The translations under genes were made by a program, and so were the position numbers. Positions 6,981-20,123 of a stretch of DNA of 64,000 bases are shown here, piece by piece. The stretch covers positions 710,644 to 774,643 of the forward strand of contig JAFDWQ010000001.1 of assembly GCA_018268395.1 (NCBI GenBank), in the 5' to 3' direction. The notes below the pieces were generated by a model, which saw only the letters and a list, made by a program, of their open reading frames with translations, did no database searches and was not told the DNA's origin. Origin of the DNA: Armatimonadota bacterium. Its GTDB lineage: Bacteria > Armatimonadota > Fimbriimonadia > Fimbriimonadales > Fimbriimonadaceae. How positions within the stretch are numbered: position 1 is the stretch's first letter; each line of letters opens with the position of its first letter.

Positions 6981-8774
6981 GACCGACTTGCCTCTGACGA
7001 ACTCATTGACGGCGTTCATCCAGCCTGAGGCGAACCCGTCAGGGTCGCACAAGGGAGAACCGACGAACGCCTGGATCCTCGCAGCCCTCTCATCGACAAG
7101 GGCTCCGGCCCGGTCCGATAACGACCGCGCCGTCGCGACATAGTCGTCCCCGTCGCGGCACACGAGGTCGTCGAACCCGCACGCGTGAAGAAGGCTGGCC
7201 GACATGCGCGACGAATACGAACGTCCGGTCAAGGTCACCACGGGGACACCCACCGACAGGCAGTCGATCGTCGTCGTCGCTCCACTGTACGGGTAGGTGT
7301 CGAGAGCGACGTGGACGCTTGCGACGACCTCACGGTGCATCTTCGCTTCGACGTACGGCAGGAAACGGACGCGTTCCGGAGCGACTCCCCGGTCCTCGAG
7401 CCGCCCTCGGATCTGAGACTGCACCCAGGTGTCGCCGGAATAGTGGTACTTGAAGAGGACGTTCGAATCCGGCACGGCCTTCAGGACTTCGGCCCACAGA
7501 CGGTAGCACTCCTCCGAAAACTTCGAAGGGTTGTTGAACACGCCGAAAACGACGCCTTCGGCCTTCGGGACGGTCGCCGGATACGGAGCTTCATCGAGGC
7601 AGAGGAAGCTATGGGGCAGCCGGATCAGGGATTCAGAGTATTGGGTCTCCGTTCCGGTAGGCGCCAGGACGTCGTCGACGATGATCCCGTCCATTTGAGG
7701 CAGCCCGGTGGTGCCGGGGTACCCGAGCCAAGTCAGTTGGACCGGAGCTGGCGCCAAAGCGAACACGTCGAGGCGATTGTCCCCCGTATGGCCGCTGAGG
7801 TCGACGAGCACGTCGATCCTGTCCATTAAGATCCTCTCTGCGATGTCTTCGGCGCGCCAACGTGCGACGCCCCTCCAACCCTGGAACGACGGCTTCAGAC
7901 ACTCGGAGAAGGCGTCCTCTCGGCCCGAGGTCATATAGGCGAAGCACTCGACGGGAAGACGATCGACCAGAGCGATCAAGAACCGTCCGACAGGATGGTT
8001 CCGCAAATCTCCGGACACGAATCCGATCCTCCGGATCTCTTGGAGCCGGCACGGCAAGGGAGGCGCGTCCGACACGGCATAGCGCTCGGCCCATCTTTCG
8101 GCGAGTTGGCGGGCTTCGTCGGGTCCGGCGGACAAGGCCGAATGACACCGCATGAGGACGTTGCTCCAGCAACGGTCGCTTCCGGGCCTCAGTTCCATCG
8201 CCCTCTTGCTGGACCGGTATGCGGCCTCCGGGTCCCCACCTGCCGACTGGACGAAGCCCATGCGGTCGTGGCCCGACCAGGACTCCGGATCAAGTGCCAG
8301 GGCCGTCCGGACGGCTTGGCGCGACTCGGAGATCCGTCCCAGTTCGTAAACGGCTTGGCTCAGGTTGCACAGGGCGTCCACATACGTCGGTTCGATCCGA
8401 AGGGCTTCGGAGAAGGCATCTTCCGCCTTTCGGAACTCACCCTTATCCATCCAAGCGGCTCCCAAGTTGTTGTGCGCCTTGGCGTTCGTCGGATCGAGCC
8501 GGACCGCCTCTTCTGCCGAACCCAGGGCCATTCCGACCTGCCCCGAACTCCTGAGCGCCGCCGCAAAGTTGCTCCAAGCTTCGGAGTTGTCGGGTTGGGA
8601 TTTCAAGACCTGTTCTAAGGCGAACGCGGCCTCGTCGGCGCGGCCCAAGGCGATGTACGACAATCCGAGAAGGTGGCGCGCTTCAGGGTCGGCCCCGGCT
8701 AGCGGAGCCAGAATCTCGACGGCTCGGACGTAATCTCCGGACCGGTACGCTTTCAGTCCGTCGTCAAAGGTCAA
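6966..8774 (-). CDS. TPR protein O-GlcNAc transferase-like glycosyltransferase (GT41), copy A
   Basis: Residues 1-200 form about six tetratricopeptide repeats (for example GRADEAAFALEQVLKSQPDN). Residues 240-600 match the GT41/SPINDLY catalytic region. Visible motifs are GFVSGDLRNHPVGRF, where the His aligns with the OGT active-site His; FGVFNNPSKFSE, with the conserved Lys that contacts UDP; and YPYSGATTTIDCLSVGVPVVT, the nucleotide-sugar loop. Family members move a sugar from a nucleotide donor to Ser or Thr of proteins in the cytoplasm. It is the last of three leftward paralogues; its ATG overlaps the stop of copy B as ATGA. The sugar and targets are unknown. Confidence 0.85.
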   Translation of the reverse strand: MTFDDGLKAYRSGDYVRAVEILAPLAGADPEARHLLGLSYIALGRADEAAFALEQVLKSQPDNSEAWSNFAAALRSSGQVGMALGSAEEAVRLDPTNAKAHNNLGAAWMDKGEFRKAEDAFSEALRIEPTYVDALCNLSQAVYELGRISESRQAVRTALALDPESWSGHDRMGFVQSAGGDPEAAYRSSKRAMELRPGSDRCWSNVLMRCHSALSAGPDEARQLAERWAERYAVSDAPPLPCRLQEIRRIGFVSGDLRNHPVGRFLIALVDRLPVECFAYMTSGREDAFSECLKPSFQGWRGVARWRAEDIAERILMDRIDVLVDLSGHTGDNRLDVFALAPAPVQLTWLGYPGTTGLPQMDGIIVDDVLAPTGTETQYSESLIRLPHSFLCLDEAPYPATVPKAEGVVFGVFNNPSKFSEECYRLWAEVLKAVPDSNVLFKYHYSGDTWVQSQIRGRLEDRGVAPERVRFLPYVEAKMHREVVASVHVALDTYPYSGATTTIDCLSVGVPVVTLTGRSYSSRMSASLLHACGFDDLVCRDGDDYVATARSLSDRAGALVDERAARIQAFVGSPLCDPDGFASGWMNAVNEFVRGKSVLAAQ

Positions 8775-10879
8775 GCCGCCTCAGCCACCCTGTCCTCCCA
8801 GACTTTCATCACGATCTTTTCGAACGAGGACGCGAACAGCTTCGCGTCACCAAGCGGAGATGCCGAGAGAGCGGCGCGGGCTCCAGCCCTGAATTCGCCC
8901 AGAGCCGAAGGGTCGGAAGCGAGCCTGACGGCCGTGTCGACGAAGCCATCGACGCTGTCGGCGACGAGGTGGCCGAAACCCGCCGTGCGCAAGAAACTGG
9001 CGGACATGTTCGACACATAGCGGTCGCCTGTTTTCGTCACGACCGGGACACCCATCGAGAGACAGTCCAGGGTCGTCGTCGCACCGGAATACGGGAACGT
9101 GTCCAAGGCGACGTCGACCCCTGACACCGTGGCCAGATGCGCGGTACGGTCGGTGTGACCGATCATCTCCAACCGGTCCATGGAGACCCCGTTCGCGTCG
9201 AACTGGGCCGCGAAGTGGCTTCGTGCAGCCGTGTCGCCCAGATAAAAGTTCTTGATGACCATGCGAGAGCCATCGACCGACCGCAGAACCCGGCACCAGG
9301 CCTCGACCACCGCCGGGTTGATCTTGGTCGTGACATTGAAGCTGGCGAACGTGACGTAGGCGTTCCGCGCCAACGGTAGCGGGCCGACAGGCGGTAGGTC
9401 GTCCCAGCAAGACAGGCACGTGAAGCTGTGCGGCAACCTGTAGACCTGTTCGCTGTACTCGTCCTCCGCCGAACGCGGCGTCACCGTCGGGTCGCCGATG
9501 AGGCCGTCGAACTGCGACAGCCCTGTGGTCCCGGAATATCCCAACCACGTGAGCTGGACCGGTGCGGGTCGAAGAGCAAAGGCGTCCAGCCGGTTGTCGG
9601 ACGTGTGTCCCGCAAGGTCGATCAGGACGTCGATCCCGTCATTCCGGACCTGTTCGGCAAGTGACGCCCCAGAGAGCCCTTTGCAGGGGACGAAGTGGTC
9701 GGCCAACGCTGCGAGCTTCTTGGTCTGGCTGTCCTGGACGTCGCTGGAGGAATACAAGTGGACCTCGAACCCCGAGAGGTTGGCCAATAAGGGTTCGAGG
9801 AAGAAGCCAACGGGGTGGATCCGGAAGTCCGGAGACACGAAGCCGATCTTTTTGGGAACCTTGTTCCGGATCGCAGGCCGGCTGCACCGAGGGGCATGTC
9901 GCACGGCATACCGCAGGGCTTCGTCCCGGATTTCGCTCCCGCTGACGGACGCGTCTCCCAGCATCGACAAGAGAAGGTTGCTATGGACGGCGGACGCGCC
10001 CGGAGATTGGGAAAGGGCGTCGCGATAGGCTTGGCACGCTTCGCCAGGGTGCCCCAACACTCGGTAGCACGCGCCGATCGCCGCGAACGACTCAGGGAGC
10101 ACGGGTTCCATCGTCAGAGCCGCGTTCGCTTCTCGGACCGCACCACTGACGTTGCCCTCTGCAAGCAGCAGGTTCGAAAGGTTGACCCTCGCCTTGGCAT
10201 GTCCAGGATCGATCGAGACGGCCCGCTCCAGGCTCGCTACGGCCTGTTTACGGTCGCCGGCCTGAGAGTGAGCGTTGGCGAGGTTCACGTAGGCACGGAC
10301 GTGCGTCGGATCGTCCTGGACGGTCTTGTTCAAGCACACGAGGGCGTCTTCTGTGCGGCCGAGATCGACGAGCTCGGCACCCATGTTGTTCCGGGCCTCT
10401 ATGAAGTCCGGTCGGATCTCGAGAGCTTTCGCGAAGCGTACGACGGCGTCGTCGGGACGTCCGAGACGGCTGAGAGCGTTTCCGGCATTGAACCAAGCGA
10501 CCGCGTTCGCCGGTGCATAACGCAAGGCCGTGTCGCAAGCCGAGAGGGCGTCTTCGAACCGGCCCAGTTCCATCAGGGCGGAACTCTTGTTACTGTAAGC
10601 GTCGGCGAAGTCCGGCTTGAGGACGAGCGCCCGGTCGATCAGGCTTACCGCGCCTTCGGCGTCGCCGGACTGCATCGCAGCGACGCCGAGGAGGTGAAGG
10701 GCGTCCACGTGGTCGGGATCGTCGGCCAAGATCTGACCGTAGACTTGCGCCGCTTCGGGTAGCCGTCCGGCGCGATGGAACTCCAAGGCCTGGGACAGCC
10801 TTTCCTCCGGCGACCGCCCCTTCTGTGGGGGTCGGAGGCCGGACGCGTTCTTCATCGCTCGACGGAGCATCGTACTCAT
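8771..10879 (-). CDS. TPR protein O-GlcNAc transferase-like glycosyltransferase (GT41), copy B
   Basis: The 702-residue product has about eight TPR units (residues 30-300) followed by the GT41 catalytic half. Motifs include IGFVSPDFRIHPVGFF, FASFNVTTKINPAVVEAW and FPYSGATTTLDCLSMGVPVVT. The catalytic-type His and the UDP-contacting Lys are both kept, so activity is plausible. The start at 10879 has alternatives at the next two Met codons (residues 4 and 9). It is the middle gene of the three-copy array, 10 bases from copy C and overlapping copy A by 4. The differing TPR arms suggest different acceptor proteins. Confidence 0.85.
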   Translation of the reverse strand: MSTMLRRAMKNASGLRPPQKGRSPEERLSQALEFHRAGRLPEAAQVYGQILADDPDHVDALHLLGVAAMQSGDAEGAVSLIDRALVLKPDFADAYSNKSSALMELGRFEDALSACDTALRYAPANAVAWFNAGNALSRLGRPDDAVVRFAKALEIRPDFIEARNNMGAELVDLGRTEDALVCLNKTVQDDPTHVRAYVNLANAHSQAGDRKQAVASLERAVSIDPGHAKARVNLSNLLLAEGNVSGAVREANAALTMEPVLPESFAAIGACYRVLGHPGEACQAYRDALSQSPGASAVHSNLLLSMLGDASVSGSEIRDEALRYAVRHAPRCSRPAIRNKVPKKIGFVSPDFRIHPVGFFLEPLLANLSGFEVHLYSSSDVQDSQTKKLAALADHFVPCKGLSGASLAEQVRNDGIDVLIDLAGHTSDNRLDAFALRPAPVQLTWLGYSGTTGLSQFDGLIGDPTVTPRSAEDEYSEQVYRLPHSFTCLSCWDDLPPVGPLPLARNAYVTFASFNVTTKINPAVVEAWCRVLRSVDGSRMVIKNFYLGDTAARSHFAAQFDANGVSMDRLEMIGHTDRTAHLATVSGVDVALDTFPYSGATTTLDCLSMGVPVVTKTGDRYVSNMSASFLRTAGFGHLVADSVDGFVDTAVRLASDPSALGEFRAGARAALSASPLGDAKLFASSFEKIVMKVWEDRVAEAA

Positions 10880-10889
10880 GCTGGTGGAA

Positions 10890-12644
10890 TTATCGGGTCG
10901 TTGCGTCCGACTCCCACAGTGCGTCCAGCGCGTCCTGCAGGCCCTTGGCCGCTACATGGCCCTGACAGAGGCTCGAACCGGCGACCTGGGCGCGCAACCC
11001 GGACCGGATCCGCGCCAGCTCGGCGGTATCTCCGGCCAGGCGGGCGGCCTCGGCCACATAGGCTTCGACCGAACCGGTGATCCACTCGTCCTTCCCGACA
11101 GCGGACAGGATCGAAGACGACATTCTCGAGGCATAGCGGTCGCCCCGAAGGGTGACGACCGGCACTCCCATGTGGAGGGCTTCGACGGTCGTCGTCGCGC
11201 CGGTGTACGGGAACGTGTCGAGCGCCACGTCGATCTCGCCGTAATCGGCGAAGGGGTCGGGGCCGGAAGACCAACCTCGGACTTCGACCCGGTCTTTGCC
11301 GATCCCGGCCGACCGGAACCTCTGGACGATCCGGTCGGCGAACCGCGCTTCGCCCAAGTGGACCGATTTCACGACGAACCGGGAGTCGGGAACTTGGGCA
11401 AGGATGTCGGCCCATGCCGCAAGGTTCGGGTCGCTGACCTTCGACATGTTATTGAAAGACCCGAACGTGACGAACCCGTTCTTCAACGCCGGAGACGGCG
11501 TGACAGGCGACGGGATCCGATCCGGATCGAAACAGAACAACGAGCCAGGGACAAGGGCGATCGTTTCGGTGTAGCACCCTTCCTCTCCGGGCCGGACGGT
11601 CTCAGCATCGGCCAAGACCGCGTCCATCGACGGAATGCCGGTCGTTCCCGAGTAGCCCAGATAGGAGACTTGGAGGGGGGCGAGCCGAGCTGCGAACGCG
11701 GCGGCCGACGAGCCGGCCGTGTGGCCCGCAAGGTCGACGGCGACGTCGGCTCCGGCGGCCTCGAAGACGGAGCGGAGGCCCTCGGCGTCAAGGTCGGGTG
11801 CGGACACGTAGTCGTCGGCCAGGTCCGCCATTCGCTCGGTCCAACCGTCGCGGACCTTGGACGTGCTCACGAGGACCAAGCGGTGCCTTTCCTTGTCCCA
11901 GTTCCTAAGGACGGGCTCTAAGAAATAGGCGACCGGGTGGGCCCTGAAGTCGGGCGAGACGAACGCGACCGTCCGGACGGCACGGGCCGGCCGAACGGGC
12001 TTCACGACAGGGTAGAGCGATCGGAACCCTTCGGCCGCGTCCTTGATCGACCCGGCGGTCGCTCGTGACGAGTAGTGCATGGCGAAGACGAGGCCCTGGA
12101 GCGCTTCAGCGAACCGAGGAGCGACATAGAGCGCTTGCCGGAAGGCACTGACCGCCCCTTCGGAGTCCCCGCCCTCTAAGAGAGAGTAGCCCAGGTTACT
12201 GTGGGCCTGGGGCATCGAAGGCTGCAGTTGCGCCGCCATCCGGGCCGAGTCGATCGACGTTCCGAGCGTGCCCGGACGTCGGAGGCAGGTGCACAACGTG
12301 CAGTACGCCGGGGCGAAGACGGGATCGAGCTTGATCGCTTGTTGCAAGGCTTCGACGGCCTCGTCGATACGGTCGACCGACCGATAAGCGTTGCCCAGAT
12401 TGCTCCAGGCTTCCGCGTCGTTCGGTGCGAGCCGTACGGCCCTTTCGAGCAAGCGCAGCCCTTCCTCCCGGCGGTCGCTCTGGAACACGAGGACGCCGAG
12501 AAACTGCACCGCTTTCGGGTGGTCGGGAGAGGCCTTTAGAAACTCGCGGTAGAGGTGCTCGGCCTCTTCGCTCAGTCCTTGGACATGGAACCGTATGGCC
12601 GCATCGAGCGTCTCTCGGGCCGTGTAAGCAGGTGCCAACGACAT
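10890..12644 (-). CDS. TPR protein O-GlcNAc transferase-like glycosyltransferase (GT41), copy C
   Basis: The 584-residue product has about six N-terminal TPRs (residues 10-190) and a GT41 catalytic region. Motifs include AFVSPDFRAHPVAYF, FGSFNNMSKVSDPNLAAW and FPYTGATTTVEALHMGVPVVT. The catalytic-type His and Lys are retained. I start it at the ATG at 12644 (MSLAPAYTARE) and not at the TTG at 12665. It is the promoter-proximal gene of the array, and only 54 bases separate it from the divergent methyltransferase. The shared control region suggests joint function in protein or surface glycan modification. Confidence 0.85.
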   Translation of the reverse strand: MSLAPAYTARETLDAAIRFHVQGLSEEAEHLYREFLKASPDHPKAVQFLGVLVFQSDRREEGLRLLERAVRLAPNDAEAWSNLGNAYRSVDRIDEAVEALQQAIKLDPVFAPAYCTLCTCLRRPGTLGTSIDSARMAAQLQPSMPQAHSNLGYSLLEGGDSEGAVSAFRQALYVAPRFAEALQGLVFAMHYSSRATAGSIKDAAEGFRSLYPVVKPVRPARAVRTVAFVSPDFRAHPVAYFLEPVLRNWDKERHRLVLVSTSKVRDGWTERMADLADDYVSAPDLDAEGLRSVFEAAGADVAVDLAGHTAGSSAAAFAARLAPLQVSYLGYSGTTGIPSMDAVLADAETVRPGEEGCYTETIALVPGSLFCFDPDRIPSPVTPSPALKNGFVTFGSFNNMSKVSDPNLAAWADILAQVPDSRFVVKSVHLGEARFADRIVQRFRSAGIGKDRVEVRGWSSGPDPFADYGEIDVALDTFPYTGATTTVEALHMGVPVVTLRGDRYASRMSSSILSAVGKDEWITGSVEAYVAEAARLAGDTAELARIRSGLRAQVAGSSLCQGHVAAKGLQDALDALWESDATTR

Positions 12645-12698
12645 TGTGTTCTGAATTCTTGGCAACTCGCTCTAGGTTTTTGAGGCCAGGGACTGAAG

Positions 12699-14085: not shown

Positions 14086-16968
14086 ATGGCAGAAGCCGGG
14101 GTCCGCGTGGTCGTCGTACCGCCAGGAACGCTCGGTCTCCTCGAAGGCCTCCGCTTCGCCGTCCGACCGGACAGTTGGGTGGCCGCCTACCATGATCCGA
14201 CCCTGAAGCCGGTGTCAGAGTTCCTCCAGGAAAGCGAACCGGACGCCGAAGCTCTGTCGTTCGCCGACCTCATCGGCAAGGTCATACGCGTTCTCGGAAT
14301 GACGACGGAACGCGTCGCGACGCGAGGTCAGCGCGAAGCCATGGCCGCTTTGGCGTGCGACAGCCTCGAGGGTACGACCACGATCGAGCGGGCCGCGACG
14401 CTGCCGGGTATGGCCGCTTTGATCGAGTCAAGGCTCGAAGAGCTTCGCCACTACGGGATCGAGCCTGACGACCTGAAAGGGATCGCCGCTACGGGCGCGC
14501 CCGCCCTTCGCGAAAAGCTCGAGGCGATGGTGCGCGTCAGCGAACTCGTGCGGGACTCCATGGAGGTCTCGCACCGCGTCTACGTCACGGACCGGATCAG
14601 GGCCTGCTTCGACGCGGACGCCCCTGACCTTTCCGCGGTCCGTCACGTCGTCGCCGTCGCCGCTTCCGAAGACCGTCCCATGTACGACGGTTTCCTGTCC
14701 TGGCTGGCACGGCACGGGGTGCCCGTCGACCTGATCGTCTGTCTCGTTCCGGAAAGGACCGACCTTTTCCGGCCGGCCCAGCGGACGGCCTCGAGAAGCG
14801 GTGCAAAGTCGACCAAAGTCCTCGGGGAGAGACCCTGGTACTCCGAATTGTTCCGTGGCGTGGCCTCCGACGAACGTCCCACCGTCTCGATCGACCTGGC
14901 CCCGGATCCTCTGGCCGAGTGCGAGTGGATCCTTAGGGAATGCCACAGGCTCCATGCCGACGGTCTGCTATATCCGGAGATCGGCGTGTTCGTGCGTGAC
15001 CCGGGACATTACGTACCCTTCCTCTTGTCTTCCGCCCGGAGGCTCGGCGTCCCCGTCCATTGTTCGAGAACCGTCCCACTGCTCTCGTGCGGCATCGCTT
15101 CGACCGTGCTCCGTGCCCTCAAAGGGATCGCGGGCCGCGACGTCCGAGAGATCGCAAGGCTTGCCTTCGGAACTTATTGTCCGACACCCCATGGATCGGC
15201 GGACGAACTCCTCGGGCACACGAAAGCGACATGGAGGCACGGGGCCTCGTCCTGGACGCGCCTGAAGGCCTGGTCCGATGTCCGGACAGAGCGGTTGCCG
15301 TGGCTCGACGCCCTACTCGCTTGGCGCGACGCCCACCTCGGTGCGACGCTCCCACTCTCGACGTGGCTCGAGGACTTCCGTACGCTCGTCGGAGAGACAG
15401 GGTTATGGGAAGCAGCTTCGGAAGGACACCCGGACGTTACGGCGCGGGACGAACGCGCCCAGACGGTTCTCCAGCGCTCGCTCGCCGACCGGGCCTTCGT
15501 GTACGACCAGGCCGGGCTCAAAGAGCTGAGCCTGCAAGGATTCGCCTCGCTCGCCGAACGGATCTGGCGGGAAGAGACGGTGACGTTCGAAACGGGCGTC
15601 GGCGGCGTTTCGGTGTCGTCCGACATCGACGCGCTGCCGCTCCTCTCGACCTTGTTCGTACCGGGGATGCTCGAGGGAACGATCCCTCGCAGACGTAAGG
15701 AAGACCCGTTGTTTCACGATGGCGAAAGGGCGACGGTCTCGGAGAGCACCGGGTCGTTCCTCCCCCTTTCTGCGGACACCGCGCGCACCGAGCGCGACCT
15801 GTTCGTCCGCATTTGCGCGGCGGCCCAAGCCGCGCTCGTCTTCAGTTACCCGCTCACGGACGACGACCGGGAGAACGTCCCGGCGTTCTTTCTCGACGAA
15901 CTGGAGCGGTGCGTCGGGGGCCGTGTGACAAGGCGCACGTTCCCACGGTCCCTGTCCGTGCCCGACGCCGAAGACGCCGTCCTGGACGCCGACCGCCGGA
16001 TCCGGGAGGCGTTGGACGGACAGCGGGACTATGCCGGGCCAGAGATGGTCAAAGCCGATCGGGCACGGAACGCCCTGCGACCGGACTGGGACGTCGGCGT
16101 CCGGGTCGAGGAGCTCGAGACCGCGGGTCGGTGCGCGTTCCAGGCGGCGTTCCGGCACAGGCTGAAAGTCCGGCCACCGGACCGTGCCGTCGGTACGGCC
16201 GTCCTCGCCGACCTGCCTCGACGGGCCGGGCTGGTCTTAGCGGCGGACGCGAAGGACGCCGGCCAACGACTTCGGGCCGAACTCGACGCTTTACTGGACG
16301 ACCTGTCGACGGACATGGCGGACTGGGAACTGGGTCTTCTCCGAGCGACCGGACTCCGGTGGATCGAAGGATGGGTCGACCGCGAGTTCAGGGCGCGCGA
16401 ACTATGGCCCCGGACCCCAGGAAGCGTCCGCCACGACGTCGGACTGGACGCCGAAGGGTTGCGGTCCGATCCGAAAGTCGGGGACCGGCGTATCAAAATC
16501 CTCGCCAAAGTCTCGGCGGTCTACGATATCGGTGGGGTCAGCGTGGTCCAAGACTATTCTCCAGGGGGCCCCGACCTGAGGAACTTCGTCGAGGACCTGG
16601 ACCAGTCGGGAGAGTCGCTCAAAGAAGGGCTCCTCCTGTTGGCCCAGACCCATCGGAGCGAGCGGGGCGTCGCCATCGAGATCGACGGCGGGTTCGACCG
16701 GAGGTTGTTCGGACTGACCCCTTCCGACGCGATGTTCCTTCGGGGCGACGCGACGGCGGGGCTCGCGGTGTACGGCCTGGGATCCAAAGCGACCCTTGTC
16801 AACCGTGTCTTTGACCGGTTGAAACACACGGTCTCGGTCCTCGACCGTGCCGATGCCCGCGCGGTTCCAGGTCGGCCCTGCGAGACGTGCCTTTACGGTG
16901 ACCTGTGCCGCCGCTCGGCCGTTTTCGGGATCGAGACGTCGCCGTTCGGGGAGGACGTCGAAACGTGA
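14086..16968 (+). CDS. AddB-like PD-(D/E)XK family Fe-S protein with degenerate nuclease site
   Basis: The 960-residue product resembles AddB/RexB subunits of helicase-nuclease complexes. It has an inactivated-helicase-like body (GVFVRDPGHYVPFL; TLFVPGMLEGTIPRR) and a C-terminal PD-(D/E)XK domain framed by four cysteines, C683, C932, C935 and C941. This is the iron-staple pattern of AddB that holds a [4Fe-4S] cluster. The expected catalytic D-Y-K reads D823-Y-S825, the D-R-x-D segment reads V-S-A-V-Y-D, and the family G-x-x-x-H reads G703-T-A-V-L. The fold and cluster therefore seem kept while nuclease activity is probably lost. It overlaps the following helicase gene as GTGA, so the two proteins are very likely partners. 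Confidence 0.75.
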   Translation: MAEAGVRVVVVPPGTLGLLEGLRFAVRPDSWVAAYHDPTLKPVSEFLQESEPDAEALSFADLIGKVIRVLGMTTERVATRGQREAMAALACDSLEGTTTIERAATLPGMAALIESRLEELRHYGIEPDDLKGIAATGAPALREKLEAMVRVSELVRDSMEVSHRVYVTDRIRACFDADAPDLSAVRHVVAVAASEDRPMYDGFLSWLARHGVPVDLIVCLVPERTDLFRPAQRTASRSGAKSTKVLGERPWYSELFRGVASDERPTVSIDLAPDPLAECEWILRECHRLHADGLLYPEIGVFVRDPGHYVPFLLSSARRLGVPVHCSRTVPLLSCGIASTVLRALKGIAGRDVREIARLAFGTYCPTPHGSADELLGHTKATWRHGASSWTRLKAWSDVRTERLPWLDALLAWRDAHLGATLPLSTWLEDFRTLVGETGLWEAASEGHPDVTARDERAQTVLQRSLADRAFVYDQAGLKELSLQGFASLAERIWREETVTFETGVGGVSVSSDIDALPLLSTLFVPGMLEGTIPRRRKEDPLFHDGERATVSESTGSFLPLSADTARTERDLFVRICAAAQAALVFSYPLTDDDRENVPAFFLDELERCVGGRVTRRTFPRSLSVPDAEDAVLDADRRIREALDGQRDYAGPEMVKADRARNALRPDWDVGVRVEELETAGRCAFQAAFRHRLKVRPPDRAVGTAVLADLPRRAGLVLAADAKDAGQRLRAELDALLDDLSTDMADWELGLLRATGLRWIEGWVDREFRARELWPRTPGSVRHDVGLDAEGLRSDPKVGDRRIKILAKVSAVYDIGGVSVVQDYSPGGPDLRNFVEDLDQSGESLKEGLLLLAQTHRSERGVAIEIDGGFDRRLFGLTPSDAMFLRGDATAGLAVYGLGSKATLVNRVFDRLKHTVSVLDRADARAVPGRPCETCLYGDLCRRSAVFGIETSPFGEDVET

Positions 16969-19256
16969 GACTGACGGACGAACAGCGGGCCGTCGTCGGC
17001 TCGGACGATCCACGTTTCACCGTCCGTGCTGGGGCAGGGTCCGGCAAGACCAAGGTCCTCGTCGACCGTTACGTGCGCCACGTCGTCGAACTCGGACACG
17101 GCCCTGACCACATCGTCGCGGTGACGTTCACGAGAAAGGCCGCCGCTGAAATGAAGAAGCGGATCGTGACGAGGCTTCGAGAAGAGGGGCTGACCGAGCA
17201 GGCCCAAGCCGCCGAGACGGGCCCGATCCAAACGTTACACGGTTTCTGCGAGCGTATCCTGAGGGAGAACTGCGTCGAAGCCCTGGTCAGCCCCGACTTC
17301 GAGGTCCTCGACAGTTCCGATGTCCGGCTCAGGACGGAGGCGGCCGTACGCTCGGCGCTTCTCCAAGTCATGGACGAGGGGTCTTCTCCCGTACGGTTGA
17401 TCCGGCGGCTTTCGGGACAGGGCGGTAACCAGCGGCCCGGATGGACGCACGCCCAACTGCGGAACATGGTGGACGCGACGATGACGCAGTTGCGCGGGGC
17501 CGGGATCGAGCGCCCTGACCTTGCGGCCGGATATGCCGACGTCGAGACGGCTCGGGCGCTCTGGGACAGAGCGCTCCGCTCAGCCCTTGGACTCGGCGAG
17601 CGGACGGGCGGACCCTCAGACACGTCCTCGAAGGCCTTGATCGAGGAAGTCAAGGCCTCAGGCGGAAAGCCGCCTTCTTGGCTCAAGCCCTTGCCTGTCG
17701 AATCGGAGTCGGCGTCTGCCGAAGACACGTGCGCCTTGGTTCAATTGGCCGTCCGGGCGTGGGAGGCGCTCGAATCGTCGATGGAAGACGACCAGGTCTT
17801 CGACTTCCCTCTTCTCGAACGGAAGGCCGTCCACCTTGTCGAACGGTCGGACGTGACGCGGGAGCGTCTGCAGTCGTCGATCAAGGCCCTCCTCGTCGAC
17901 GAGGCCCAAGACCTCAACCCCGTCCAGTACCGGCTGATCGACAGTCTAGGTGCTCCCAGCGAGATGCTGGTGGGCGACCCACAGCAGTCCATTTACGGGT
18001 TCCGGTTCGCCGAAAGGCGTCTGTTCGTCGAACGCTCCGAAGAGCTTCGGAACTATGTCCTGTCCCGGAACCACCGTTCTGGGCCGGGGATCCTGCGCTT
18101 TGTCGACGAGGTGTTCGCTCCGACCTGGGGCGAAGGCCACATGCCGATGCGGGCCTTCGTCCCCGAGGGTGACGACCCCTTCGACACGGGCGCCAAAGAC
18201 TGCGACGGGGTCGAACTCTGGCCGATGGCGGCTAAGGACAATGCGACCGTCGCGGCGCTGATCCACCAGATGGTCGAAGAAGGGACACCGTTACGGAACG
18301 TCACGGTCCTGACACGGCGCAATTCCGCCATCTCCGACATTGCGGAACGGCTGGAGTCGGCAGGGGTCCGTTGCCGCAAGGTCGGAGGTTCCGAACGGTT
18401 CTTGACGCGTCTCGAAGTGCGCGACCTTGCCAACGCCCTGGAGGCCCTGTGCGACCCGTATAACGACTTCTCCTTCTTGGCCTTGCTTCACGGCCCCATG
18501 GTCGGGCTTTCCCTCGAATCGACGGTTCTGGCGGCGGTCCAGTCACCGTCGTACGAGTCCGTCAGGACCCTGTCGGACCTCCCGCCCGAGGACCAGGTCC
18601 GCCTCGAAGGGTTCTGGCCCTGGTTCGAGCGGCTCCGCGAGACGGTCGACCGGGTTCCGGCCTGGGAGACGATCGCAGCCCTCTTCAGCGAAACGCCCTT
18701 CCTTGATCGTTGCGCGGCCCTGCCTCACGCGGAACAGGCCTTGGCTAACGTCCGCAAGATGCTCTCCATGGCCGTCGCCAGGCCCCAGACCGGAGCGCGC
18801 GAGTTCGCAGACCAGATCCACGACATTACGTTCTTGCGGCACAAGGAGGGCGAGGCCCCGGTCACGGACGAGAACGAGGAAGCGGTGACGCTCATGACCG
18901 TCCACAAAGCGAAAGGCCTCGAATTCGATACGGTCGTGGTCACGGAGACCCACGAACGCCTCTCTCCCAAGCGGAAGCCGCTCGTGATCGAAGCGCACCG
19001 CGGGCTCGTGGCCCTCGGGCTCTCCGGCCGCCACTCGACCGCATACCTCTGGTTGAGCCACCTCGCGACCGAGCGGGAGCGAGAAGAGCAACTCCGTGTC
19101 CTCTACGTCGCGATGACCCGGGCCGAACGACGACTGTGCCTCGTCACGTCGGAGCAAGGCAACAACGAGAGTTCGGCCGGAATCCTGGCGGCCCGCGGGG
19201 GACTTCCATCGAAGCCCCTTCCCGGCATCAAGGTGCGGAGGATCGGCGATAGGTAG
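16965..19256 (+). CDS. UvrD/AddA-type superfamily 1 DNA helicase, no nuclease domain
   Basis: All SF1A helicase motifs are visible: I AGAGSGKTK, Ia TFTRKAAAEMKKR, a TLHGFCERIL segment typical of AddA/RecB, II LLVDEAQDLNPVQYR, III GDPQQSIYGFR, IV NHRSGPGIL, V VTLMTVHKAKGLEFD and VI VLYVAMTRAERRL. It should unwind DNA 3' to 5' using ATP. The protein ends about 50 residues after motif VI. At 763 residues it lacks the C-terminal nuclease domain that makes AddA about 1200 residues long. GTG at 16965 overlaps the stop of the AddB-like gene (GTGA). The pairing suggests an AddAB-like recombination or defence complex without canonical nuclease. Confidence 0.85.
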   Translation: MRLTDEQRAVVGSDDPRFTVRAGAGSGKTKVLVDRYVRHVVELGHGPDHIVAVTFTRKAAAEMKKRIVTRLREEGLTEQAQAAETGPIQTLHGFCERILRENCVEALVSPDFEVLDSSDVRLRTEAAVRSALLQVMDEGSSPVRLIRRLSGQGGNQRPGWTHAQLRNMVDATMTQLRGAGIERPDLAAGYADVETARALWDRALRSALGLGERTGGPSDTSSKALIEEVKASGGKPPSWLKPLPVESESASAEDTCALVQLAVRAWEALESSMEDDQVFDFPLLERKAVHLVERSDVTRERLQSSIKALLVDEAQDLNPVQYRLIDSLGAPSEMLVGDPQQSIYGFRFAERRLFVERSEELRNYVLSRNHRSGPGILRFVDEVFAPTWGEGHMPMRAFVPEGDDPFDTGAKDCDGVELWPMAAKDNATVAALIHQMVEEGTPLRNVTVLTRRNSAISDIAERLESAGVRCRKVGGSERFLTRLEVRDLANALEALCDPYNDFSFLALLHGPMVGLSLESTVLAAVQSPSYESVRTLSDLPPEDQVRLEGFWPWFERLRETVDRVPAWETIAALFSETPFLDRCAALPHAEQALANVRKMLSMAVARPQTGAREFADQIHDITFLRHKEGEAPVTDENEEAVTLMTVHKAKGLEFDTVVVTETHERLSPKRKPLVIEAHRGLVALGLSGRHSTAYLWLSHLATEREREEQLRVLYVAMTRAERRLCLVTSEQGNNESSAGILAARGGLPSKPLPGIKVRRIGDR

Positions 19257-19265
19257 ACTCCGCTT

Positions 19266-20123
19266 ATGACCTTCCGGATGGCCGTGGTCCAGTTCGCCCC
19301 GGTCAAAGGTGACGTCCCCGCTAATCTCGACCTGATCGCCGCCCACACGAAGACGGCTGTCTCCGAAGGCGCCGAACTGTGCCTGTTCCCCGAAAGCGCG
19401 GCCTGTGGTTATGTCCTCGAAGGGGCTGCGCCCGAATCGGCCCTCGCTCCGGAGACCCTCCTCGCGGGCCTGTCGACCCGGCTCCGCGGTCTCACGAAAC
19501 AGGTCGACCTTTTGGTGGGGTTTTACGAAAAGGCAGACGGGCAGCCCTATAATTCCGCCGCCTACATGAGCCTCGGGCCGGACGGCGACCGGGTCGTCCA
19601 CGTATACAGGAAGTTCTTCTTACCGACTTATGGCGTGTTCGACGAAGAGCGGTTCCACCAGCGGGGACTGTCGCTCGGGGTCTATGACACGCGTTTCGGT
19701 CGGTTTGGAACGCTGATCTGCGAAGACGTTTGGCACTCCGTCCTGGCCACCTTGTGCGCCGTCAGCGGCGCCCAGGTCATGCTCGTCCCCTCGGCGTCGC
19801 CCGTTCGCGGCCTCCGGACCGACAAGCCCGGCAACGTGCTCCGGTACGAGCGCATGCTCCGGGCCGTCAGCGAGGAGCACGGCATGTACACGGCTGCGGC
19901 GATGCTCGTAGGCGTCGAAGGCGGGAAGGCTTTTAGCGGGGGCTCCATGGTCTTCGATCCGGACGGCGAGAGTATCGTCCAAGCGCCGATGGGAGACGAA
20001 GCGATGGTGATCGCCGACATCGATCTCGACCGCGTGACCGTCGCGCGCACCCGGACACCGTTGATCGGAGACCTGCGCGCTTCCTGGGACGCCATCGTCA
20101 GGCTCGCGACTTCTGTACCGTGA
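19266..20123 (+). CDS. carbon-nitrogen hydrolase (nitrilase superfamily amidase)
   Basis: The catalytic triad of the superfamily is visible: Glu43 (CLFPESAACGY), Lys116 (HVYRKFFLPTYGVFDE) and Cys152 (TLICEDVWHS). The YRKxxLPTYGVFDE stretch is closest to the glutaminase domain of NAD+ synthetases, but the synthetase domain is absent. It is a stand-alone amidase of 285 residues, probably cytoplasmic, hydrolysing an amide such as glutamine or a small carboxamide. It follows the helicase gene by nine bases, possibly only by position. Confidence 0.8.
   Translation: MTFRMAVVQFAPVKGDVPANLDLIAAHTKTAVSEGAELCLFPESAACGYVLEGAAPESALAPETLLAGLSTRLRGLTKQVDLLVGFYEKADGQPYNSAAYMSLGPDGDRVVHVYRKFFLPTYGVFDEERFHQRGLSLGVYDTRFGRFGTLICEDVWHSVLATLCAVSGAQVMLVPSASPVRGLRTDKPGNVLRYERMLRAVSEEHGMYTAAAMLVGVEGGKAFSGGSMVFDPDGESIVQAPMGDEAMVIADIDLDRVTVARTRTPLIGDLRASWDAIVRLATSVP

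Follow-up and report, generated by a model that had tools for sequence, protein, structure and literature searches.

The analysed window, a stretch of 64,000 nucleotides from an Armatimonadota bacterium, carries on its forward strand two intact reading frames coding for an AddB-type subunit and an AddA-type SF1A helicase, in that order. The genes overlap in a GTGA, where the TGA stop of the first (16966-16968) is interlaced with the GTG start of the second (16965-16967). Their features are collected in Table 1, together with neighbouring genes and a solo nuclease encoded elsewhere in the genome. Relatives are designated below by the groups of the genome tool (f1-f44), which have no one-to-one match with named taxa: f1 is the Fimbriimonadaceae-like family of the window's host, f5 its sister, and f2-f4 are other families of the same order.

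Table 1. Features of the addBA locus, of its surroundings and of the solo nuclease gene. Positions are those of the window unless a contig or locus is named.
Feature	Position	Strand	Remarks
Two tandem genes, TPR repeats then O-GlcNAc-transferase-like region	8771-12665	-	
Gene 1, AddB-type subunit	14086-16968	+	960 aa; predicted nuclease-dead, Fe-S cysteines retained
PPGTLGL replacing the AddB P-loop (Walker A lost)	14119-14139	+	comparison with relatives
C-terminal PD-(D/E)XK-like domain of AddB, catalytically degenerate	16084-16938	+	aa 667-951
Cys683, iron-staple cysteine 1	16132-16134	+	near-invariant across the whole phylum sample
Arg712 replacing the GxxxH histidine	16219-16221	+	alignment with f2-f4 and outgroup AddB
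S810-A-V-Y813 replacing D-R-x-D	16513-16524	+	alignment; model strand 808-815
D823-Y824-S825 replacing D-Y-K	16552-16560	+	alignment; end of model strand 818-824
Cys932, Cys935, Cys941, iron-staple cysteines 2-4	16879-16908	+	near-invariant
Gene 2, AddA-type SF1A helicase without C-terminal nuclease domain	16965-19256	+	763 aa
AddA-type Walker A, AGAGSGKT	17028-17051	+	G-x-GKT invariant in 17 aligned relatives
AddA-type motif II, DEAQD	17898-17912	+	D-E-x-Q-D invariant in aligned relatives
Motif VI region and short C-terminal tail, not followed by an AddA nuclease	19098-19253	+	
Carbon-nitrogen hydrolase gene	19266-20123	+	
Solo Cas4/RecB-like PD-(D/E)XK protein	own genome C5:326220-326999; L090:6221-7000	-	four Cys

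Sequence, predicted fold and synteny all identify gene 1 as an AddB ortholog. It matched the NCBIfam model addB_Gpos (E 2e-9), and the profile of its family matched B. subtilis AddB (3u44_B) at E 2e-27. Five B. subtilis AddB structures were the top PDB matches of its AlphaFold2 model (pLDDT 87), with Z scores of about 29 over residues 4-951 and 904-915 residues aligned; the match to the RecC fold was weaker. In its architecture a helicase-like N-terminal part precedes a PD-(D/E)XK fold that sits within a 1+3 bracket of cysteines, and this last part (aa 667-948) matched the Cas4-family protein 9iac as well (Z 12, VIA-align). In B. subtilis AddB, a latch salt bridge between E129 and R629 gates the response to Chi (PMC4824097). 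Alignment placed these residues at E119 and R548 of the window AddB, two positions occupied by E in 26 and by R in 23 of 35 f1 rows, respectively. The pair is thus mostly retained and a gated strand channel may persist in AddB. The position of F68 was F or L in most rows, and that of R70 holds a residue other than Arg in the window.

All three catalytic motifs of the AddB nuclease domain are altered in the window. Two consecutive strands of the AlphaFold2 model coincide with the expected places of D-R-x-D and D-Y-K; the domain is divergent, and residue-level alignment there depends on MAFFT and on these predicted strands. The catalytic site was kept in none of about 37 aligned f1 and f5 members versus 14 of 14 from f2-f4. 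Likewise, the second Asp of D-R-x-D occurred in no f1 or f5 row and the Lys of D-Y-K in a single f1 row and no f5 row, both being present in all 14 rows of f2-f4. Pfam PDDEXK_1 matched AddB strongly in f2-f4, whereas just three weak matches were recorded in f1/f5 and the window AddB stayed under the cut-off. Within f1 the former active site varied freely (position 825 was E, R, Q, S or others). An AddB Walker A (P-loop) was seen in 0/35 f1 and 0/6 f5 members, in 2/2 of f3/f4, in 2/12 of f2 and in 15/20 outside the order. The four cysteines were present in all full-length AddB rows of f1-f5 and accounted for four of the 12 invariant columns in a 29-member f1/f5 alignment. AddB and Cas4 hold an Fe-S cluster on such a 1+3 arrangement (PMC3466216) and, by homology, the window AddB would carry one on C683/C932/C935/C941. 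Unlike that of f1, the dead site of f5 was near-fixed, with R at 712 and 823 in most members and D810 and Y813 in all, and it may have acquired a new binding role.

Gene 2 matched Pfam UvrD-helicase and UvrD_C, and its top NCBIfam match was addA. Its model (pLDDT 86) matched B. subtilis AddA from residue 9 to residue 958, the whole part ahead of the nuclease domain (696-716 residues aligned, rmsd 3.3-3.9). The protein stops 51 residues past motif VI; tails beyond this motif measured 36-76 aa in the window's order, and 36-67 aa where its AddA gene adjoins addB, versus about 350-400 aa in outgroup AddA. Thermus thermophilus AddA is given as 857 aa (PMC11143384) and the AddA nuclease domain was lost in isopod Wolbachia (PMC4224334), so that loss of this domain alone is not unique. 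The AddB and AddA genes lay side by side in f3 and in the majority of the f1 and f5 loci.

A relative of gene 1 was present in 59 of 61 related genomes, including 51 of the 51 good ones. Named relatives, found with an eight-row alignment of the gene 1 family (a single-protein query gave none), were Armatimonadota, many of them Fimbriimonadaceae/Fimbriimonadia. Families f10, f13, f21, f23, f29, f38, f39 and f44 displayed AddA proteins of 1121-1266 aa with nuclease motifs and intact AddB; in AddB of outgroup families the H, D-R-x-D and D-Y-K were intact and the P-loop usual. The AddA nuclease domain was absent from the whole order of the window (f1-f5) as well as from f6, f8, f12 and f27. The AddA nuclease domain was lost before the AddB site, which disappeared in the common ancestor of f1 and f5. 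These two families formed one group (SH-aLRT 100) in a quick-search tree that left out the nuclease domain and contains some long branches, and a single AddB loss therefore accounts for both. Two AddB proteins of f12 displayed separate losses, G186 at L161 (H to R, D-Y-K to H-Y-R) and G080 at L164 (H to R, D-Y-K to D-Y-T), both with an intact AddB P-loop and a nuclease-less AddA. By this count, doubly dead AddAB would have arisen at least three times in the phylum, the f12 cases being one genome each.

The window's own genome codes for two UvrD-type helicases, namely one UvrD-like protein and the window AddA. No second AddA/RecB-type helicase was found in it, nor any RecQ-family or RecD2 match passing 1e-20, and a second AddAB or RecBCD taking over was rejected for this genome. 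The combination that defines RecBCD (RecB with nuclease, RecC and RecD) was found neither in the window pair nor in its genome. RecJ, RecF and RecO genes are present there, and among good genomes RecJ was recorded in 51/51, RecO in 49/51 and RecF-like matches in 50/51. A RecQ-family match was missing in most f1 genomes as well, with RecJ, RecF and RecO present. Extra nuclease-bearing AddA/RecB-like ORFs occurred in a few relatives (G014, G030 and G038).

The preliminary description of the locus, made from the letters of the window, had proposed that both nuclease activities of an AddAB-like pair were lost, and the missing AddB site residues and AddA nuclease domain agree with this throughout the clade. 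The details on which it relied were read correctly: the iron-staple C683, C932, C935 and C941, D-Y-S for D-Y-K, V-S-A-V-Y-D for the D-R-x-D segment, the lack of the GxxxH His, the GTGA overlap, and an intact SF1A helicase ending shortly after motif VI. Conservation in relatives, which it had raised for Ser825 and the cysteines alike, held for the four Cys, which do not vary in f1, but not for the variable Ser825. The search that it had suggested for another addA/recB-type helicase came back empty in the own genome. Chance, a sequencing error and damage to one copy are excluded as the source of the degenerate site since the same state runs through two families, and no relative with an intact AddB site was found in f1 and f5. 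Its proposal of a machine distinct from AddAB calls for correction: the two genes represent AddAB by descent, in a derived form that occurs throughout the family and order and was reached stepwise from an ordinary two-nuclease AddAB.

The reading that we favour, and consider probable, is that the window pair is a derived housekeeping AddAB acting as a helicase without nuclease, which unwinds DNA ends while resection and RecA loading occur in trans. AddA, as its intact motifs and predicted fold show, is the sole motor. AddB is no longer an enzyme, its P-loop and PD-(D/E)XK site having gone from the sequence; since it retains its whole predicted fold and the Fe-S cysteines, it should act as a clamp, a strand guide and perhaps a sequence scanner. 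By comparison with AddAB, the two subunits together would engage DNA ends at breaks or reversed forks and unwind them. Both AddAB cutting sites being gone, the cutting needed for break repair must come from other proteins. RecJ, whose gene is present, would trim the 5' strand, and the RecFOR proteins, of which RecF and RecO are encoded, would load RecA in trans. The closest tested precedent for such a division of labour is E. coli RecB1080CD, a RecBCD-class complex that has helicase but no nuclease activity and works in recombination together with RecJ and RecFOR (PMC3375238); it is a laboratory point mutant, whereas two whole bacterial families share the state of the window pair. RecJ and RecFOR are general housekeeping proteins and their presence does not, therefore, single out this arrangement. 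With roughly even chances, the lineage has as its main DNA-end machine an AddAB that is nuclease-free by nature and whose AddB, no longer an enzyme, is clamped by Fe-S; unwinding would then be separated from resection, as in eukaryotes with their helicase and distinct nuclease, and the state would have at least three origins in the phylum.

The main rival source of cutting, and a candidate partner, is the solo Cas4/RecB-like protein. AddAB would still be a helicase-nuclease if this protein docked as a third subunit and cut the unwound strand, which we regard as unlikely. GxxxH, a D-R-x-D-type motif, D-Y-K and the four Cys were all found in 8/8 aligned copies, i.e. a full catalytic set, and almost all genomes of the order had a strong PDDEXK_1 match of solo-protein size. 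Outside the order, the protein was found in the sampled families with nuclease-less AddA (f6, f8, f12 and most f27) and was patchy elsewhere. Yet families with an active AddB (f2-f4) had it just as well, as did some genomes whose AddAB has two nucleases (G170), and no solo gene was seen beside addAB in f1. Somewhat more doubtful is a recruitment of AddAB for unwinding without resection, such as fork restart or the clearing of R-loops or proteins, with breaks handled otherwise. The loss of both nucleases and of the AddB P-loop, together with the presence of RecFOR and RecJ, would suit such a job; retention of the entire AddB architecture, most latch pairs included, argues against it, as does the failure to find any other AddAB/RecBCD-type or RecQ helicase in the own genome.

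It is very improbable that a rearranged metal site keeps the AddB domain active as a nuclease. Its PD-(D/E)XK fold is predicted to be intact, but no conserved set of acidic residues and Lys suggestive of a new metal site was found in the f1 domain: six columns were acidic in at least 70% of the rows (676, 748, 767, 867, 939 and 949), none of them at a former metal-ligand position, and no conserved Lys could be paired with them. We give hardly any credit to the view that the gene pair represents decaying AddAB remnants. AddB divergence is indeed high (20-45% identity among relatives) and two copies, in G005 and G030, displayed one stop inside the match; against this, the pair is full-length and universal in good genomes, its helicase motifs and four Cys are invariant, and the state is long-lived across two families.

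Compared with AddAB (RexAB) of the B. subtilis type, the window pair shares the overlapping AddB-then-AddA gene order, the AddB fold with its Fe-S cysteines and helicase-like N-terminal part, and an SF1A motor of AddA architecture. It differs by the lack of a nuclease site in either subunit and of the AddB P-loop, and by an AddA that stops where the nuclease domain would start. Mycobacterial AdnAB is likewise a heterodimer of homologous helicase-nuclease-like subunits, and the window AddB model also matched AdnA (Z 20-22, below the AddB values). AdnA and AdnB each carry a nuclease domain, as the construct names D934A/D1014A also indicate. RecC, the counterpart of AddB, has inactivated helicase and nuclease domains and guides DNA; for the evolution of RecBCD, a route to such a subunit by way of AddAB was proposed (PMC1185551). 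The window AddB converged on the same non-enzymatic state but, unlike RecC, retains the four Fe-S cysteines; RecBCD further differs in its nuclease-bearing RecB and its RecD motor, whereas the window AddA has no nuclease and the own genome gave no RecD2 match. In virus TTV1, a Cas4-type protein has also lost its catalytic activity and taken on another, non-enzymatic role (PMC5704561), as a stand-alone nucleocapsid protein outside any helicase.

RecBCD and AddAB are the standard example of a DNA motor joined to a nuclease under the control of Chi. A lineage without any nuclease site in the pair, yet with motor, scanner fold and Fe-S cysteines, suggests that these parts are separately selectable. 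It raises the questions of what role the Fe-S staple plays once no nuclease needs its support, and whether a nuclease-free scanner responds to a Chi-like sequence. The origin of RecC-like inactive subunits, a step proposed for RecBCD (PMC1185551), thereby becomes visible stage by stage in living relatives. Neither a report of AddAB in Armatimonadetes nor a description of AddAB with both nucleases lost was found in the open-access literature, most subscription papers lying outside the search. Walker A and Fe-S motifs reportedly occur in subsets of AddB (Cromie, 2009), so that mosaic AddB proteins were already known; what looks new is a clade in which both nucleases are gone.

At the locus itself, the carbon-nitrogen hydrolase gene begins 10 bases 3' of addA and was found in the same place in 19 f1 loci. 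It has no obvious link to recombination, and a nuclease supplied by the adjoining gene was rejected on account of this conserved neighbour. The preliminary description had left recombination, replication forks and defence side by side as possible roles; recombination or end processing appears the likeliest, and defence is unsupported. The pair is a core chromosomal one, no defence genes were found beside addBA, and PADLOC matches of gene 2 (UvrD/GajB) reflect generic SF1 helicase similarity, gene 1 having no PADLOC match. Gabija (GajAB) was rejected for the same reason, the neighbour of gene 2 being AddB and not GajA. In G030, a minus-strand open frame of 2029 residues (L107:4242-10328) displayed two D-Y-K motifs and a helicase motif VI and is possibly a fused AddB-AddA; this genome carries the nuclease-dead AddAB pair too. 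Several other f1 genomes carry relatives of the TPR/O-GlcNAc-transferase-like genes upstream of addB.
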